NCBI GenBank assembly: GCA_016278725.1
Contig: JADQBG010000020.1
Location: 1-64,000, forward strand
DNA: 64,000 bases
Direction of reading: 5' to 3'
Source of the DNA: Actinomycetota bacterium
Lineage (GTDB): Bacteria; Actinomycetota; Thermoleophilia; RBG-16-64-13
Part shown: one piece after another, positions 25,346 through 32,689 of the stretch
Position numbering within the stretch: position 1 is the stretch's first letter
Layout: every line of letters begins with the position of its first letter
Notes under the pieces: generated by a model
What the model was told of the DNA's origin: nothing
The model's database searches: none
Seen by the model: the letters and a program-made list of their open reading frames with translations, nothing else
Translations under genes and position numbers: made by a program

Positions 25346-27517
25346 TCAGCGCGAGAGGGACCGGCCCAGTATGAGCGCGACGTGGCCGCGGCTGGCCGGG
25401 GCGTAGGGATCGAAACTCGTGGCGCTCCTTCCCTGCACCAGGCCGTTGAATTCGGCCCGGGCGACCACCGCGCGGTCCTCGAGCGCGACGTCCCGAAAGC
25501 CGGAATCATAGCCCGCCGGGGGCTGGGCCAGAGCGCTGCCCTCGGCCCGCACCAGCACCCGGACCAGCTGCACCCGGGTCATCGGCTCCCAGGGCCCAAA
25601 ACGGCCGTCCCCATAGCCCTGCAGCAGGCCGTTGGCCACCGCGGCCTGGACGTAGCCGTAAGGGTAGGCGGCCCCGTCGTCGGGGAGGTCGGGAAAGCTC
25701 AGCACGCTTCCGGTGGACGATTCCTGCCCGAGTTCGTATCCTTCGACCACCATCTTGGCTACCTGGGCCCGCAGCGCGGCCCCGGACGGGCCGAAGGTGC
25801 GGTCGCCCCGGCCGATGACCGCGCCCAGCACGTTCAGGTGGGTCACGCGACCGTAGAGCTCACCGGAAGCGGGCACGTCCCAGAACAGGCGGCGCGTCGC
25901 GGCGGGCATCTGATCCGCGGGCAGGCCTTCCCGCTCCTCGGCCAGCAGTGCATGCCCCTGCACGCGCAGTTCCCCCGAAACCTGGTCATAAGGGAGGTCC
26001 TGCAGATCGGTCCCCTTGATCAGGGCCAGACCGGCCATCACCCCGGCTGCCGCGCCCATGTTTCCCCGGACCGACTCCATCCTCACCGCGGAGCTATAGG
26101 CGCTCTCATCGCTCGAGACGGCGGTCGGGGTGAGCAGGTAATCAAAGCCCCGAGGAATCAGGGCGCCCATCGGCACGTGAACGGCGGCCTCGGCCGAGAT
26201 CTGTTGGGCACCGGCCGGATCATGGCGGTCGTAGCGGGCGTAGCGGCCAAAGGCCACGCTCTGGCGCCTTCTATCGGCGTCGATGTCCGCGCCGCTGTAG
26301 AAATCCTCACCCATGAAGCGCACGCCTGCGCGCACGTAGGGCTGTTCGGGAACTCGGTCGACGCCCACTCGAGGATAGCCGTGTTCCTGCAGATAGCGCA
26401 CCTTGTCGAGCACCGTTGTCGCCATACGCTGCCGCAGAGCCTCGCGAGAATCGGGCCGCATCACCCAGGTGAAGATATCGGCCGGGGTCCGGTAGTCGCT
26501 CCAAGCCTCGTTGAGTTCTCGCCGGTCGTTGGGCAGCACCTGCCGCATCGACCAGCTGTCGCCAAAGCCCAGGAGGTTGTTCTCGCCAAAGGTGAAGTCC
26601 GGTCCGTAGGTGCTTCCCTGATAGAGGGGGTGCGTCAGTTCGGCCAGAGGCGGCGCGTCCCCGGGATGAAGGCGCAGGGTCAGCAGCATGCTGAGCGACT
26701 GGGGAGCGGTGAAAAACCCGTTCTCGGGGCCGGGAGGGGCCGGAGCCGGACCCAGCACGTCGTTGAAGACGGCGTTTCCCGTACCCATCATGTAGTCGGC
26801 GCCCAGGGCGCGGCCCAGGTCGCCCTCGGGGGAAGCGTCGATCACCAGCCGCGCCTCCACCGACTGCCGGGCGCCCGTCGGACTCTCGACCAGCACGCGC
26901 GTAGTTCCCGCGGCACCGGGGGGCTCGACCTGCACGAGTTTCCCGCTCAGACGGCGCAGGCCGCTGCGGGGCAGTAACGAGCGCAGCACCTCTTGAGCCA
27001 CCCGGGGTTCGTAGCGCAGGCGGCCGTCGCGGGCGGCGTCTATTCCCTGGGCCGCGTAGCGAGACAGCACTCCCCGGCGAAACTCGTCGTAGAAGCCGCT
27101 AACGGTAACTGAAGGACGGAAGACGTCTTCGACCGAGAGGCCCTGAGCCAGGGGGCTCTCGAACTCCGCGGCGGGAGCGATCAGCGCCAGCGAAAATTCG
27201 CGGCCAAAACGCCTGCCCAGCCTGTCCAGCGCGTGAAGCGCGCCTATCCCGCCCGTCGTCGAGCCGTAGACCAACACGTCGACCGATAGGGTCTCGACTT
27301 CGGCCGCAGCGGTTTCGGCCATGGGCGCCGCCTCGCCCGCGGGCGACGGTTCGGCCGCGGCCGCCTCTTCGACGGCGGCCGGCGGAATGGCGACGGTTGC
27401 GGTCGGCGCCGGGGACCCTCCGAGCAGGAGCGTCAAGAGCAGCAAAAAGCAGGCCCCCGCGGTGAGGAAGTTCCGTCTCGCTGGTACCCGTGGGCGGCCG
27501 GTGTGCCTTTCCGTCAT
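25346..27517 (-). CDS. secreted FAD-dependent oxidoreductase with C-terminal SLH repeats
   Basis: The product (723 residues from ATG 27517) has an arginine-rich start, then a signal or anchor helix (FLTAGACFLLLLTLLLGG), then an Ala/Pro linker. An FAD-dependent oxidoreductase domain follows (about 75-520): VLVYGSTTGGIGALHALDR as the nucleotide fold and VEARLVIDASPEGDLGRALGA, as in PF12831-type enzymes. Three SLH repeats end it (about 535-720). This makes a cell-wall-bound flavoprotein, which is unusual. The substrate is unknown. The start is preceded by AAGGAG at a long spacing (13 bases). Confidence 0.75.
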   Translation of the reverse strand: MTERHTGRPRVPARRNFLTAGACFLLLLTLLLGGSPAPTATVAIPPAAVEEAAAAEPSPAGEAAPMAETAAAEVETLSVDVLVYGSTTGGIGALHALDRLGRRFGREFSLALIAPAAEFESPLAQGLSVEDVFRPSVTVSGFYDEFRRGVLSRYAAQGIDAARDGRLRYEPRVAQEVLRSLLPRSGLRRLSGKLVQVEPPGAAGTTRVLVESPTGARQSVEARLVIDASPEGDLGRALGADYMMGTGNAVFNDVLGPAPAPPGPENGFFTAPQSLSMLLTLRLHPGDAPPLAELTHPLYQGSTYGPDFTFGENNLLGFGDSWSMRQVLPNDRRELNEAWSDYRTPADIFTWVMRPDSREALRQRMATTVLDKVRYLQEHGYPRVGVDRVPEQPYVRAGVRFMGEDFYSGADIDADRRRQSVAFGRYARYDRHDPAGAQQISAEAAVHVPMGALIPRGFDYLLTPTAVSSDESAYSSAVRMESVRGNMGAAAGVMAGLALIKGTDLQDLPYDQVSGELRVQGHALLAEEREGLPADQMPAATRRLFWDVPASGELYGRVTHLNVLGAVIGRGDRTFGPSGAALRAQVAKMVVEGYELGQESSTGSVLSFPDLPDDGAAYPYGYVQAAVANGLLQGYGDGRFGPWEPMTRVQLVRVLVRAEGSALAQPPAGYDSGFRDVALEDRAVVARAEFNGLVQGRSATSFDPYAPASRGHVALILGRSLSR

Positions 27518-27564
27518 CTGCTCATACCCTCTCCTTGTGCTCAGCGTCTGCCAAGAAACCGGTT

Positions 27565-29937
27565 CTACTCTCCCTCGGCCGCGGTTGCCCTCACGCCCGA
27601 TCCCGCCTCGAGGGCCGGGACGGCGACCCGGGGCAGCACAAGCGCCTCGGGGCGCAGATCGGGCAACCAGCGCAGCCACCTAGGCAAGTACCAGTTGATA
27701 TCTCCAAGCAGGGCCATGGTAGCGGGAACCAGGACTGAACGCACGAGCGTCGCATCCAAGAAGACCGCCACCGCCAGTCCGAAGCCGACCTGCTGCATCA
27801 TGACCAGGCGTCCGGAGGCAAAGGTCCCAAAGACCACCACCATGATGGCCGCGGCTCCGGTGATGATCCGCCCGGTGGCGCGCAGCCCCACGGCAACCGA
27901 CTCCTGGTTGCGCCCGGTTCGGTCGAAGTGCTCCCGGATGCGGCTGAGGAGAAAGACGTGGTAGTCCATGGAAAGGCCGAACAGGATGCAGAAGAGAAAA
28001 AGCGGAACCCACGCCTCCACGGCAGGAGTTCTCTGGAAGCCAAGCAGTTCGGCTCCCCAACCCCGCTGGAAGACCATCACCAGCACTCCGTAAGCGGCTC
28101 CCACCGAGAGCAGATTCATGAAGATGGCTTTGAGCGGCACCACCACCGAGCGAAAGACCACCAGTAAAAGCAGAAAGCTCAGCCCGAGCACGAAAGCAAA
28201 CACCCAGGGCGTGTAACTCCCGATAACCGCAAAGGAGTCGACCTCGGCGGCCGTCTTGCCGGTGACGTAGGCCTCGACCGCCGAACCTGCGAGGGCAGCC
28301 GGCAGTGTCTCTTGGCGCAGATCCTCGACCGCCAAGCGCGCCTGTTCGGAATTTGGCCGGGCTTCCAGGTAGAGGGTGAGCCGGGCCACCTCGCCGGAGC
28401 CGGCCCACTCGAGCCGCGGTTGGGAGAAGCCGGGTACCGCCGCCAGCGACGCCGGCAGACGCTCGATCGCCGAGCGGGCCTCGGCGTTCGCCGGCCGCAG
28501 GGCCACCTCGACAGGACTGAGTGCCCCGGCAGAGAAATCCTCCTCCAGCAGCTGATAGGCATCTCGCGCCTCTCCCGGGGGAAGCGTCTCGGCGCCGGCC
28601 GCGCCGCGCTCGAGTTGCAGGAAGGGCTGCGCCAGGAGAAGAAGCACTCCCCCGGCCAGGATCACGCTTACGACCGGCCGGACCATCACCCAGTGGGCGG
28701 TTCTGCCCCAGAAGCCGGAATAGGGCTGTCCCGGTGCCTTTTGCCCGCCTTCGTCCGCGCGTTCACCCCGGGGATCGGGCTTTGCGGCCGGACGGGGGCT
28801 CCTCCGCAGCCGGTTGAGGCTCAGCCAATCGATGCGGTTTCCCAGCAGGCCGAGCGCGGCCGGGACCAGGGTGAGCATGGCGACCACCCCAACGCCGACC
28901 ACCAGGGTCGCCCCCAACCCCAAAGAACGGAAAGTGGTGATGGGCACCAGGAAGAGCCCCAACAAAGCCAGGATCACGGTCACGCCCGAGAAGAGCACCG
29001 CCCGGCTGGCGGTTGCGCCGGTGACGCCGATCGCCTCGAGGGAGGCACGTCCGGCATTGCGCTCCTCCCGATAGCGCTCGATGATCAAGAGAGCGTAGTC
29101 GATACCCACCGCCAGTCCGATCATGGAGATCATGTTGACCACGAAGAAGGAGAGATCGAACACCCGCCCGATGAGGGCGGCCAGGCCGATGGCCGTCACG
29201 ATCGAGACCGCGGCCAGACCCAGAGAGAGCCCGGCGGCAAGCAATGCGCCGAAGACCAGCACCAGCACGCCCATGGCGGCCGGCAGCCCCACCAACTCGG
29301 CGCGGATCAGATCTTCCTCGGCGATGGTCATGAAGGTCTCGCCCACGCTCCCGTCGCCGATCATCGTCAGCGTAAAAGCGGGAGTGCGGTGACTGTCGAG
29401 GATCTCGGCGAGGCGCTCTTGGCCGTCCGGCCCCGCCGGGCCGCCCTCCGCTTGGGCGCCGTCTCCTCTGAGCGAGACCTGCACGAGCGTGCTTTGGCGG
29501 TCGGCCGAGACCAGAGCGTTCGCGGACTCCGGATCAAAGGCTGCGACCAGGGGATAGCTGTAGGCTTCCACCACCACATCGCGGGCGGCAACTAGATCCG
29601 CCGTCAGCACCTGGAGGAACTGCTGGTAGGCAGGGTCGTCCACCGTCGTTCCGTTTTCCGTCGAGACCACGATGGTTTCCTGTTCGCCTTCGGCCGAGCC
29701 AAAGGCTTCGTTCAAGAGTTCTTGCCCCCGAACCGACTCCGGCCGGCCCAGCAGCGTCATTTCCCCTGCACTGACCACCGCGCCAATCTGCAGGGCCAAG
29801 AAGACCGCGACCACAAAAACCGCAAGCCAGACGCCGAGCACGAGCCGTCCGTGCCGGGCGCTCCAAACGGCAAGCCGGCCGGTCAGCGAGGACAGGACCA
29901 AGGGGTGAACGGTGGCATCGGTGGGGTCGGAAGGCAT
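27565..29937 (-). CDS. MMPL/RND family membrane transporter
   Basis: The product (about 790 residues) has the MMPL layout: an N-terminal TM helix, a large extracytoplasmic loop (about 50-200), five or six TM helices with GIDYALLIIERYREE at about 315, a cytosolic loop, then a second copy with GLSMDYHVFLLSRIREHFDRTG. Aspartates within these TM motifs carry the proton relay. Family members export lipids or drugs in Gram-positive bacteria. ATG 29937 gives MPSDPTDATV; an upstream GTG at 29955 is an alternative. It lies between the radical SAM and SLH-flavoprotein genes on the same strand. Confidence 0.9.
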   Translation of the reverse strand: MPSDPTDATVHPLVLSSLTGRLAVWSARHGRLVLGVWLAVFVVAVFLALQIGAVVSAGEMTLLGRPESVRGQELLNEAFGSAEGEQETIVVSTENGTTVDDPAYQQFLQVLTADLVAARDVVVEAYSYPLVAAFDPESANALVSADRQSTLVQVSLRGDGAQAEGGPAGPDGQERLAEILDSHRTPAFTLTMIGDGSVGETFMTIAEEDLIRAELVGLPAAMGVLVLVFGALLAAGLSLGLAAVSIVTAIGLAALIGRVFDLSFFVVNMISMIGLAVGIDYALLIIERYREERNAGRASLEAIGVTGATASRAVLFSGVTVILALLGLFLVPITTFRSLGLGATLVVGVGVVAMLTLVPAALGLLGNRIDWLSLNRLRRSPRPAAKPDPRGERADEGGQKAPGQPYSGFWGRTAHWVMVRPVVSVILAGGVLLLLAQPFLQLERGAAGAETLPPGEARDAYQLLEEDFSAGALSPVEVALRPANAEARSAIERLPASLAAVPGFSQPRLEWAGSGEVARLTLYLEARPNSEQARLAVEDLRQETLPAALAGSAVEAYVTGKTAAEVDSFAVIGSYTPWVFAFVLGLSFLLLLVVFRSVVVPLKAIFMNLLSVGAAYGVLVMVFQRGWGAELLGFQRTPAVEAWVPLFLFCILFGLSMDYHVFLLSRIREHFDRTGRNQESVAVGLRATGRIITGAAAIMVVVFGTFASGRLVMMQQVGFGLAVAVFLDATLVRSVLVPATMALLGDINWYLPRWLRWLPDLRPEALVLPRVAVPALEAGSGVRATAAEGE

Positions 29938-30036: not shown

Positions 30037-31107
30037 CTAGAGTGAGGCGAGGGCCAATACCTTCCGCAGCATGGCCGGGCGCAGGTCCCAGAGCCACGAG
30101 GTCTCGACCACGTCCGGATTGTTGCAGGCCGTGCAGGACTCTGCTTCGCGGGCCATCTCCCGGTAGCGCGGGGATCGGTAGAAGGCCTCGAGCCCCGCTC
30201 CGCCGGCGATCTGCTCGTAGGAGGCCAAGGGGCGGTCGCGGCGCAGGCAATGGCGCACGGAGCCGTCGGCTTCTATGGTGAGGATGGCCCGGGGCACGCG
30301 GCAGGTGTACCGGGTCAGCTCCGGATCGCGTTCCAGCAGCCGCAGGTATCTCTCCGTGGAAAGCAGGGGGTAGCCCGCGGCCTTTAGCCGCAGGGCGCCG
30401 GCGGCGGCGCGGCGGAGCTCATCCGCCGGCAGCGCCAGGTCCGCCATCCGCCCGTCGAAGCCCTCGCTCTGCATCTGCCCGGTTTCCATGGGGCAGAAGT
30501 AGAGGCCCGCCCCCCATCTCTTCGCCAACGGGGCCACGCGTTCGAGCGCGCCGGGGTTGGCGGCGGAGAGCACCGTATTTAGCAGGAGCCGCGGCTTCAG
30601 CGGGTCCTCCGCCAATCGCCCCACCAGCATTTCCAGGCGCGCGAACAGGCCCGGGATACCCCGCATTTGGTCGTGGGCCTCTCCCAGATCGTCCACGCTC
30701 AGGATAAGGGTGTCGACCGAACCGCGCAGCTCGGGCCAGCGGCGCCCAAGGAGGTGGCCGTTGGAGATCAGGGTAACGAGCAACCCCGCCTCTTTCGCCC
30801 CCCAGAGCAGGCGGGGCAGGTCGCGGCGAAGGGTGGGCTCCCCGCCCCAGACCACCAGTTGCACGAGTCCCGCCCGCGCCGCCTGGCGGTAGAGCTCTTC
30901 CACCGCCGTGGTATCCAGTTCGCCTGCGGTTTGCGCCTCTAGGCCACCGCCGGCGACGTCCTCCATACGCCACATGCACGTGGGGCACCGGGCGTTGCAC
31001 CGGCCGGTCACCAGGTGACTGAGAATGAAAGGCCGGCCGCGCGCACGGGCGCGCAGAAAGCCTGCCACGAGGCGGCCGCCTTCGAGCATGGGGGGCACTT
31101 TCGCCAC
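30037..31107 (-). CDS. radical SAM protein with a cysteine-rich C-terminus
   Basis: The 356-residue enzyme has the radical SAM cluster CNARCPTC (C37, C41, C44), a GGEP motif (VVWGGEPTLRRDLP), and later SAM-binding strands (LISNGHLL, LILSVDD). The C-terminus has further cysteines (YTCRVPRAIL, RHCLRRDR, SCTACNN), a SPASM/Twitch-like pattern for an extra cluster. Such enzymes often modify peptides or help make cofactors or lipids. GTG 31107 follows GGGAG 6 bases upstream. It starts a same-strand series with the MMPL, SLH-flavoprotein and MFS genes and is divergent from the small-membrane-protein operon. Confidence 0.85.
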   Translation of the reverse strand: MAKVPPMLEGGRLVAGFLRARARGRPFILSHLVTGRCNARCPTCMWRMEDVAGGGLEAQTAGELDTTAVEELYRQAARAGLVQLVVWGGEPTLRRDLPRLLWGAKEAGLLVTLISNGHLLGRRWPELRGSVDTLILSVDDLGEAHDQMRGIPGLFARLEMLVGRLAEDPLKPRLLLNTVLSAANPGALERVAPLAKRWGAGLYFCPMETGQMQSEGFDGRMADLALPADELRRAAAGALRLKAAGYPLLSTERYLRLLERDPELTRYTCRVPRAILTIEADGSVRHCLRRDRPLASYEQIAGGAGLEAFYRSPRYREMAREAESCTACNNPDVVETSWLWDLRPAMLRKVLALASL

Positions 31108-31145: not shown

Positions 31146-31204
31146 ACGGTAAGGCAAATGTTCAAGATTAGAATCTTACCCATTTGACCTGGGCCCCTTA
31201 CCGT
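31146..31204. promoter_or_regulatory. nested dyad in the divergent region before the radical SAM gene
   Basis: A symmetric 32-bp dyad is centred at 31170/31171: CAAATG (31155-31160), AAGATT (31164-31169), AATCTT (31172-31177), CATTTG (31181-31186). A further pair, ACGGTAAGG (31146-31154) and CCTTACCGT (31196-31204), encloses it with a 9-base offset. The remaining intergenic stretch up to 31475 (368 bp in all from 31108) holds smaller hairpins, for example 31317-31329 and 31431-31443. It has no gene that I can support and no convincing promoter. Confidence 0.6.
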
Positions 31205-31475
31205 TGTACAACCCCTGTAGGGACGCTTTCGGGCTCCGGCCGGACCGCGTCCCAACTTCTTACGACGGGGGACATATGGGGTCTGGGGGGGCCTATAGCG
31301 CTTTGCGCGGGAATCGCGCCGATTCGGCGTGGCGTAGAGCCGCAGCCCAAGCCCCGCCCGGGACGCTGTCGATGGCGGCCCCCGGGAACTCGGTCTCAGG
31401 GAAACCCCTTGGGGGGTGGTGTTCTTGAAAGTCAGCCGCTGACTGAGGCGCCACTCAATATCAAGGAGGTAACCC

Positions 31476-31994
31476 GTGTCCACTGCGACAGACACACAAG
31501 TGTCTCCCGCAGAGCGTCCTTCGGTTTCGACCGACCCGCTTTCGTCTTCCGCGTCCTTCTGGGCCTCGAAGACCGCCGAGCGCATCTTGACCATGTTGGT
31601 CGTATGGGGGGCGGCAGCGGCCACCACCTACGTCTTCTGGTGGATCGACAACGGATTGGTCGACGCCAGTCTGTTCTCCGCGGTATTCGCCTATTGGGGA
31701 CTCTTCTTCACATTCACCCTCGGCTTGTACCTGGGTCTCGGAGGAGGCGACTGCTACTCGTGCACTCTGCAGAGCGAGCTGTTTTCCCCGGAAGCCCTCC
31801 GCAAGGCCGCAGGGATCGGCATCGCCATGATCGGTACCGCCATATCGGTCGCGCTCACCACTCACTTCGCGCAATACGCCGGGCCTGACGGTGCCCAGGG
31901 TCTCAACCTGGCCGGAACTCAGGTGTTCTCCCTGCTGCCCCTGCATTGGGGCTTCGTTTGGGTGGTCTTCGTTCAGCACGTCGGACTGGTATAG
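31476..31994 (+). CDS. unrecognised four-TM membrane protein, first of a three-gene operon
   Basis: The 172-residue product has a Ser/Thr-rich cytoplasmic start of about 35 residues and four likely TM helices at about 37-57, 63-88, 108-130 and 145-168. A GLGGGDCYSC loop with two cysteines follows TM2. GTG 31476 has AAGGAGGTAACCC just upstream. I do not recognise the family. Topology and scattered motifs (a Gly-Leu-Gly turn after TM2, RKAxG before TM3, SLxxxxW in TM4) match the next protein, so the two look like diverged paralogues. Confidence 0.7.
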   Translation: MSTATDTQVSPAERPSVSTDPLSSSASFWASKTAERILTMLVVWGAAAATTYVFWWIDNGLVDASLFSAVFAYWGLFFTFTLGLYLGLGGGDCYSCTLQSELFSPEALRKAAGIGIAMIGTAISVALTTHFAQYAGPDGAQGLNLAGTQVFSLLPLHWGFVWVVFVQHVGLV

Positions 31995-32005
31995 GAGGTG
32001 CCGCG

Positions 32006-32410
32006 ATGACCAACATCGGAGGCAAACTTGGAGTGCTGCTGGCAATAGTCGTTCTCGCCGCCATCAGCGTATTCGCGATGACAGCGCTAGATTGGCACGT
32101 GGCCGGAAGCGACGACGCCCAGGGATTGCTTGGGCTCGACATCGATCTCTGGCTGATCTTCTGGACCCTAATGCTGACCGGTTATTGGGGACTGCCGGGA
32201 AAAGACGTACCCTACGCGCGCAAAGCCATAGGCACGGTGGTCATTCTCGTCCTGGGGGTGATCTTCACCTACCTATTCAAAGCGATCAGCCCCGGAATCG
32301 TCGGCGGAAGCGTGGATGAGTACCCCCTGATGTCCCTGACCTTCGTAGCCTGGTCGCTGGTCTTCGTGATGTCGGCTCTGTGGGTGGGGTCGTTCTATCC
32401 AAAGCTCTAG
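32006..32410 (+). CDS. unrecognised four-TM membrane protein, second of the operon
   Basis: The 134-residue product has four TM helices: LGVLLAIVVLAAISVFAM, LWLIFWTLMLTGYWGLPG, AIGTVVILVLGVIFTYLF and LTFVAWSLVFVMSALWVG. A short polar segment DWHVAGSDDAQG links TM1 and TM2. ATG 32006 follows ATAGGAGGTGCCGCG. It lies 11 bases after the first gene and resembles it in layout, suggesting two subunits of one membrane complex. Confidence 0.7.
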   Translation: MTNIGGKLGVLLAIVVLAAISVFAMTALDWHVAGSDDAQGLLGLDIDLWLIFWTLMLTGYWGLPGKDVPYARKAIGTVVILVLGVIFTYLFKAISPGIVGGSVDEYPLMSLTFVAWSLVFVMSALWVGSFYPKL

Positions 32411-32446
32411 ACCCCCGGAGGCAAAGCTCATGCAGAGGAGGCATTC

Positions 32447-32614
32447 ATGATTACCACCAGGAACCGCGTGCTACTCGAAGTGCTCGTGGTCGGGGTGCTG
32501 ACAGTCGTTACCACCACAATCTTGCTTGCGCTCAATATCGGCGGAGTCATCGGCTCAGTCGTGTCGCTCTGGGCGTTGCTCTACATGCTCTGGTACCACT
32601 ACCTCGTGACCTGA
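32447..32614 (+). CDS. 55-residue membrane protein, third of the operon
   Basis: A short frame begins at ATG 32447 behind GCAGAGGAGGCATTC, a strong ribosome site, and ends at TGA 32612-32614. The protein is mostly hydrophobic (LLEVLVVGVLTVVTTTILLAL, then IGSVVSLWALLYMLWYHYLV), enough for two TM helices. A six-codon frame starting at 32430 overlaps its start codon. A clear terminator follows, so this is the last gene of the unit. Confidence 0.65.
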   Translation: MITTRNRVLLEVLVVGVLTVVTTTILLALNIGGVIGSVVSLWALLYMLWYHYLVT

Positions 32615-32653: not shown

Positions 32654-32689
32654 AACCGGCCGGGGCCGTCCTCGGCCGGTTATTTCTTC
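32654..32689 (+). terminator. intrinsic terminator of the small-membrane-protein operon
   Basis: AACCGGCCG (32654-32662) pairs perfectly with CGGCCGGTT (32673-32681) around a 10-base loop, followed by ATTTCTTC. It begins 40 bases after the third gene. Confidence 0.75.

Follow-up and report, generated by a model that had tools for sequence, protein, structure and literature searches.

A small membrane-protein operon that accompanies methanol methyltransferase genes in one clade of Actinomycetota

What do three small genes for membrane proteins, set close together in the genome of an uncultured actinomycetotal bacterium, contribute to the cell? The window analysed here is a 64,000-nucleotide stretch of that genome (contig JADQBG010000020.1 of assembly GCA_016278725.1), and the three genes, here called A, B and C and jointly the triad, lie on its forward strand (Table 1). 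An earlier note on this DNA had described them as having strong ribosome sites, close spacing, a clear terminator and a lower GC content than their surroundings, and all four points were borne out. Shine-Dalgarno (SD) sites precede A (AAGGAGGT), B (AGGAGGT) and C (AGAGGAGG), the gaps measure 11 nt between A and B and 36 nt between B and C, and a hairpin with a T-rich tail follows C. The GC content of the triad is 59.7%, against 66.2% +/- 2.4% in same-length stretches of the window, of which 0.3% are lower; this is partly due to the A/T-rich second codon position of membrane proteins, and GC3 is likewise lower (75-80%, against 81-90% in neighbouring genes). For A, B and C, dN/dS is 0.06-0.08 in the window's genus (window versus congener) and 0.09-0.12 in a second genus, g4, values that mark all of them as apparently real genes subject to purifying selection. 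The operon A-B-C is genuine.

Table 1. Features of the triad locus and of related loci. Plain numbers are positions in the window; prefixed positions refer to other loci.
Feature	Position	Strand	Details
Promoter-like TTGACC-N17-TACAAC ahead of triad	31184..31212	+	by eye
Triad leader, ~260 nt	31213..31475	+	strong SD-like site GGGGGGTGGTG near 31414, then very short ORF
Gene A	31476..31994	+	GTG start, 172 aa, four TM helices
Gene B	32006..32410	+	134 aa, four TM helices
Gene C	32447..32614	+	55 aa, one strong and probably a second, weaker TM helix
Intrinsic-terminator-like hairpin	32654..32681	+	12 pairs, T-rich tail; just past 32614, the end first noted
Radical SAM/SPASM-like protein	30037-31107	-	below every NCBIfam cut-off shown
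FAD-dependent oxidoreductase	25346-27679	-	C-terminal S-layer homology domains
Shared leader stretches	L010:1960-2100 (-); L025:1735-1880; L024:12989-13130 (-); L003:11255-11391; L028:9475-9611		alignment
mtaB clusters with CobS-like AAA ATPase and 593-660 aa protein	L029:5041-6126 (-); L029:3240-5021 (+); L027:7818-9800 (+)
MFS transporter gene of g4	L027:15060-18710	+	divergent from triad
Second RamA of G006	G006:C1:4347923-4349536		above cut-off, 692.9 bits

Both hydropathy and AF2 models give A and B four transmembrane (TM) helices each. A hydropathy scan finds one strong helix in C, and a second, weaker one makes two the probable number, so that the triad would span the membrane about 10 times; the charge distribution suggests that each protein has both ends inside. 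The first 28-30 residues of A are an extension restricted to the window's genus. The earlier note could place none of the three in a known family, and that judgement stands: searches of Pfam, NCBIfam and PHROGs returned sub-threshold matches alone, and PDB sequence profiles gave nothing significant. As the AF2 models are weak (mean pLDDT 62 and 65, pTM 0.52) and the best Foldseek E value against PDB folds was no better than 0.4, no fold is assigned. DUF6050 (PF19517) was considered as a family for C, which it matches weakly along a stretch of 32 residues (E 0.0054; 17.5 bits, where the cut-off is 27), as do four of the six C proteins at E <= 0.1; the match lies below the cut-off, covers a hydrophobic stretch only and is probably due to chance.

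The cysteine pair to which the earlier note drew attention, GDCYSC, is indeed present in the window's A, in the longest cytoplasmic loop of that protein, but it does not hold as a conserved functional feature: both A proteins of genus g6 (in genomes G006 and G014) lack the CxxC, and the loop is shortened there. A redox membrane protein built on this pair was accordingly ruled out. The residues that are invariant near the end of A are H157, Q167 and H168, the invariant histidines of the triad are confined to one helix of A, and neither B nor C has an invariant His or Cys across the triad genomes.

Are the subunits related to one another, as the note's view of A and B as diverged paralogues would have it? 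A profile comparison of helices 1-2 of A with helices 3-4 of B scores 51.5, a value reached by none of 200 shuffles and none of 115 unrelated membrane stretches, and in four of the six genomes single-sequence alignments of A and B also score above windowed shuffles. The probability that hhalign assigns to A against B is just 36%, and most other helix-pair comparisons among the three proteins are not significant. A two-helix module common to A and B is the likeliest reading of these profiles, and it supports a distant relatedness of the two proteins. Helices 1-2 of A also score against C, more weakly, at 36.3, which 0 of 200 shuffles and either 0 or 5 of 115 unrelated stretches reach, depending on the side compared; that C contains the same module is only suggestive.

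The distribution of the triad is narrow within the Actinomycetota genomes searched. A was found in 6 of 99 related genomes, all from one Actinomycetota family, a profile of B run on 399 class genomes retrieved these six again, and a profile of A found 2 of 396 genomes in a phylum sample, both from the window's genus. A weak B match in genome G072 (E 5e-4, 20.5 bits, with an internal stop) was taken as noise, and tblastn of plasmids with B gave no match. The search beyond Actinomycetota consisted of one scan with exact A peptide patterns, which also missed the copies of g6. The carriers fall into three genera, g1 (G000, the window's genome, and G001), g4 (G004 and G013) and g6 (G006 and G014). 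The three genes recur together in all six genomes with the order A-B-C intact, one of the signs that the note had named in favour of a complex, and identities between genera are 50-68% for A, 55-71% for B and 53-85% for C.

It is the neighbourhood of the triad in other genomes that points to a function. In four of the six carriers (G004, G013, G006 and G014) the triad stands directly upstream of mtaB, the gene for methanol:corrinoid methyltransferase, and then mtaC on the same strand; the MtaB encoded after C in g4 and g6 has 457 residues, and the next gene specifies the B12-binding MtaC. In G000 and G001 the triad and mtaB are both present and unlinked. Among the 399 class genomes MtaB is present in the six that carry the triad and in no others, in the phylum sample it is found in the same 2 of 396 genomes as A, and RamA above its cut-off is found in the same 6 of 18 family genomes as the triad. 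Contig 18 of G000, separate from the contig that bears the triad, holds a full cluster of mtaB, mtaC, mtaA and ramA, which also encodes a CobS-like AAA ATPase, a CobT-VWA-like protein and a CobW GTPase. The G000 MtaB matches PF12176 over its full length (645.6 bits), scores just under the NCBI naming threshold for the NCBIfam equivalog (648 against a cut-off of 720), and aligns end to end with Methanosarcina barkeri MtaB (2i2x), retaining E164, C220 and C269, which we take to be the zinc ligands; the RamA-type corrinoid activase of this genome reaches 720.7 bits. MtaABC with RamA is the system of methanogens, of acetogens such as Moorella, and of Desulfotomaculum kuznetsovii, and the window's genome has all four components as full-length family matches, whereas no member of the triad matches any of them. 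CODH/ACS is present in 12 of 18 family genomes, G000 among them, which would allow methyl groups to be fed into the Wood-Ljungdahl pathway. Three observations carry the weight of the link between triad and Mta genes: they are adjacent in two genera, both have been kept in the third after becoming separated, and the G006 triad has the leader described below.

In the mtaB clusters that pair a CobS-like AAA ATPase with a protein of 593-660 residues, the latter matches CobT-VWA weakly (8e-7 in L027, 0.0097 in L029), and together they may act on MtaB/MtaC as a reactivase or chelatase pair. A gene for an MFS transporter is divergent from the triad in g4, followed in G004 by one for a multicopper-oxidase-like protein, recognised by eye. 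G006 encodes a second RamA, which hints that this genome may have another methyl-compound pathway as well.

The leaders of the triad and of mtaB add a second kind of evidence. About 140 nt of the G006 triad leader can be aligned with mtaB leaders (E 2.6e-8 with that of G014, in a small pairwise comparison), and the opening codons of mtaB recur there in degenerate form. Among the triad genomes such an mtaB-like triad leader is seen in G006 only; blastn of the six genomes with this leader found no other strong copy, in a search so insensitive that mtaB leaders themselves were not scored. The window's own triad leader is 79% identical to that of G001, in which the promoter-like sequence is kept as TTGACC-N17-TAAAAC; the window's version was missed by a consensus scan in which the last -10 position had to be T. 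Judged by eye, triad and mtaB leaders appear to carry sigma70-like promoter sequences, and most seem to contain, ahead of the main gene, a strong SD site with a very short ORF, in the window TTG AAA GTC AGC CGC TGA. A conserved stretch in which a strong SD site and a two-codon ORF lie some 100 nt ahead of the main start is common to the G006 triad leader and to the leaders of mtaB in g4 and g6. A riboswitch was considered for these leaders and rejected, with no Rfam match and folding no better than that of shuffles. In at least three linked genomes mtaB has promoter-like sequences of its own after C, and co-transcription of the triad with mtaB is therefore not established.

Could the triad simply be a neighbour by history, with an unrelated membrane function, inherited beside mtaB from one ancestor? 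On an rpoB tree, from which G014 was left out for want of an rpoB match, g1, g4 and g6 form a single clade (support 87/90), so the joint counts of triad and mtaB probably trace back to a single shared gain or shared retention and do not stand for six separate events, and the co-occurrence may reflect a single event. The separate promoter-like sequences of mtaB, the distance between triad and mtaB in the window's genus, and the faster evolution of the triad (identity between genera of 50-71% for A and B against 82-85% for MtaB) are all in keeping with such a history. Against it, both triad and mtaB are retained in six of six genomes, even where unlinked, the G006 triad has its mtaB-like leader, and A, B and C are under purifying selection; we regard a purely historical association as unlikely.

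The radical SAM gene that diverges from the triad in the window had been suggested in the earlier note as a functional partner, and this link was rejected. Its distribution does not track that of the triad: the gene is scattered through the family, in 7 of 18 genomes, adjoins the triad in the window's genus alone, is missing in g4, is separated from it by about 2.5 Mb in G006, and also occurs in relatives without the triad. Elsewhere in the window, the FAD-dependent oxidoreductase carries S-layer homology domains, a combination that is unusual in a surface protein.

We propose, at what we judge to be an even chance, that A, B and C are a membrane module serving the corrinoid-dependent methanol methyltransferase pathway in an uncultured, CODH/ACS-bearing clade of Actinomycetota, where the module would serve MtaB, MtaC, MtaA and RamA. 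The three proteins probably form one hetero-oligomer, with the two-helix module common to A and B, and the earlier idea of a heteromeric complex is plausible and partly supported. As to mechanism, our first choice is a permease or channel, followed by a membrane anchor for the methyltransferases and then by metal or corrinoid supply. Transport is preferred because the proteins are almost wholly intramembrane, without nucleotide-binding, solute-binding or soluble domains; the lack of a nucleotide domain and of a conserved Cys pair, with invariant His in a single helix of A, makes an ATP-driven or redox role unlikely. Such a permease or channel, a tentative reading to which we give somewhat less than even weight, would carry methanol, or a pathway-related methylated compound, ion or product, across the membrane. 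Methanol crosses membranes easily, which weakens the case for methanol itself as the cargo. It is doubtful, though conceivable, that the bacterial corrinoid-dependent methanol pathway has, in a previously undescribed three-subunit complex with a shared two-helix block, a permease or energy-coupling element of its own.

Alternatively, A-B-C might transport nothing and act as a membrane anchor or organiser, docking MtaB/MtaC/MtaA/RamA or the CobS/CobT-like ATPase pair. The genomic link of the triad to mtaB clusters and RamA would suit this role too, and the CobS-like AAA ATPase and CobT-VWA-like protein of those clusters could need a membrane partner, but A, B and C expose hardly any mass in the cytoplasm to which a protein could dock, and in g6 the longest loop of A on that side is shortened; docking is in our estimate quite improbable. 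Less probable still is a role of the module in bringing cobalt, zinc or a corrinoid into the cell for MtaB and MtaC, given the few conserved metal-binding residues, the absence of invariant His or Cys from B and C, and the lack of a match to ECF or cobalt-transporter families in Pfam and NCBIfam, despite the pathway's requirement for zinc and cobalamin, the CobW-type GTPase and CobS/CobT-like proteins within mtaB clusters, the invariant residues at the end of A, and a putative Co2+ transporter that is methanol-induced in Moorella (PMC13391211).

How does the proposed pathway module compare with known systems? In plan it recalls small paired membrane transporters such as heterodimeric SMR proteins or Fluc/CrcB, which consist of two related 4-TM subunits and likewise combine two short proteins from one operon with a shared module. 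The resemblance is in plan only: the triad has no Pfam or NCBIfam match to these families, no fold match, and an extra third subunit of 55 residues. The mtaABC operons of Desulfotomaculum (PMC5770442) and Moorella (PMC13391211), as far as the available portions of these reports describe them, have no three-gene membrane module, so the triad does not appear to be needed by the pathway generally. In the part of PMC10805028 available to us, Actinobacteriota are among the main methylotrophic bacteria of thawing peatland and express genes for demethylating methylated oxygen compounds, and no such membrane genes are mentioned there. The triad is best placed as a membrane accessory of the Mta pathway in one actinomycetotal clade, apparently undescribed in the openly readable main texts on mtaB in Actinobacteria.

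Accounts of anaerobic methanol use by the Mta enzymes usually picture the pathway as soluble. A membrane module retained with these enzymes would suggest that a step of transport, anchoring or energy coupling is missing from that picture. Methanol turnover in thawing peatland bears on methane release, and the triad would serve as a genomic marker of this lineage of methylotrophs.
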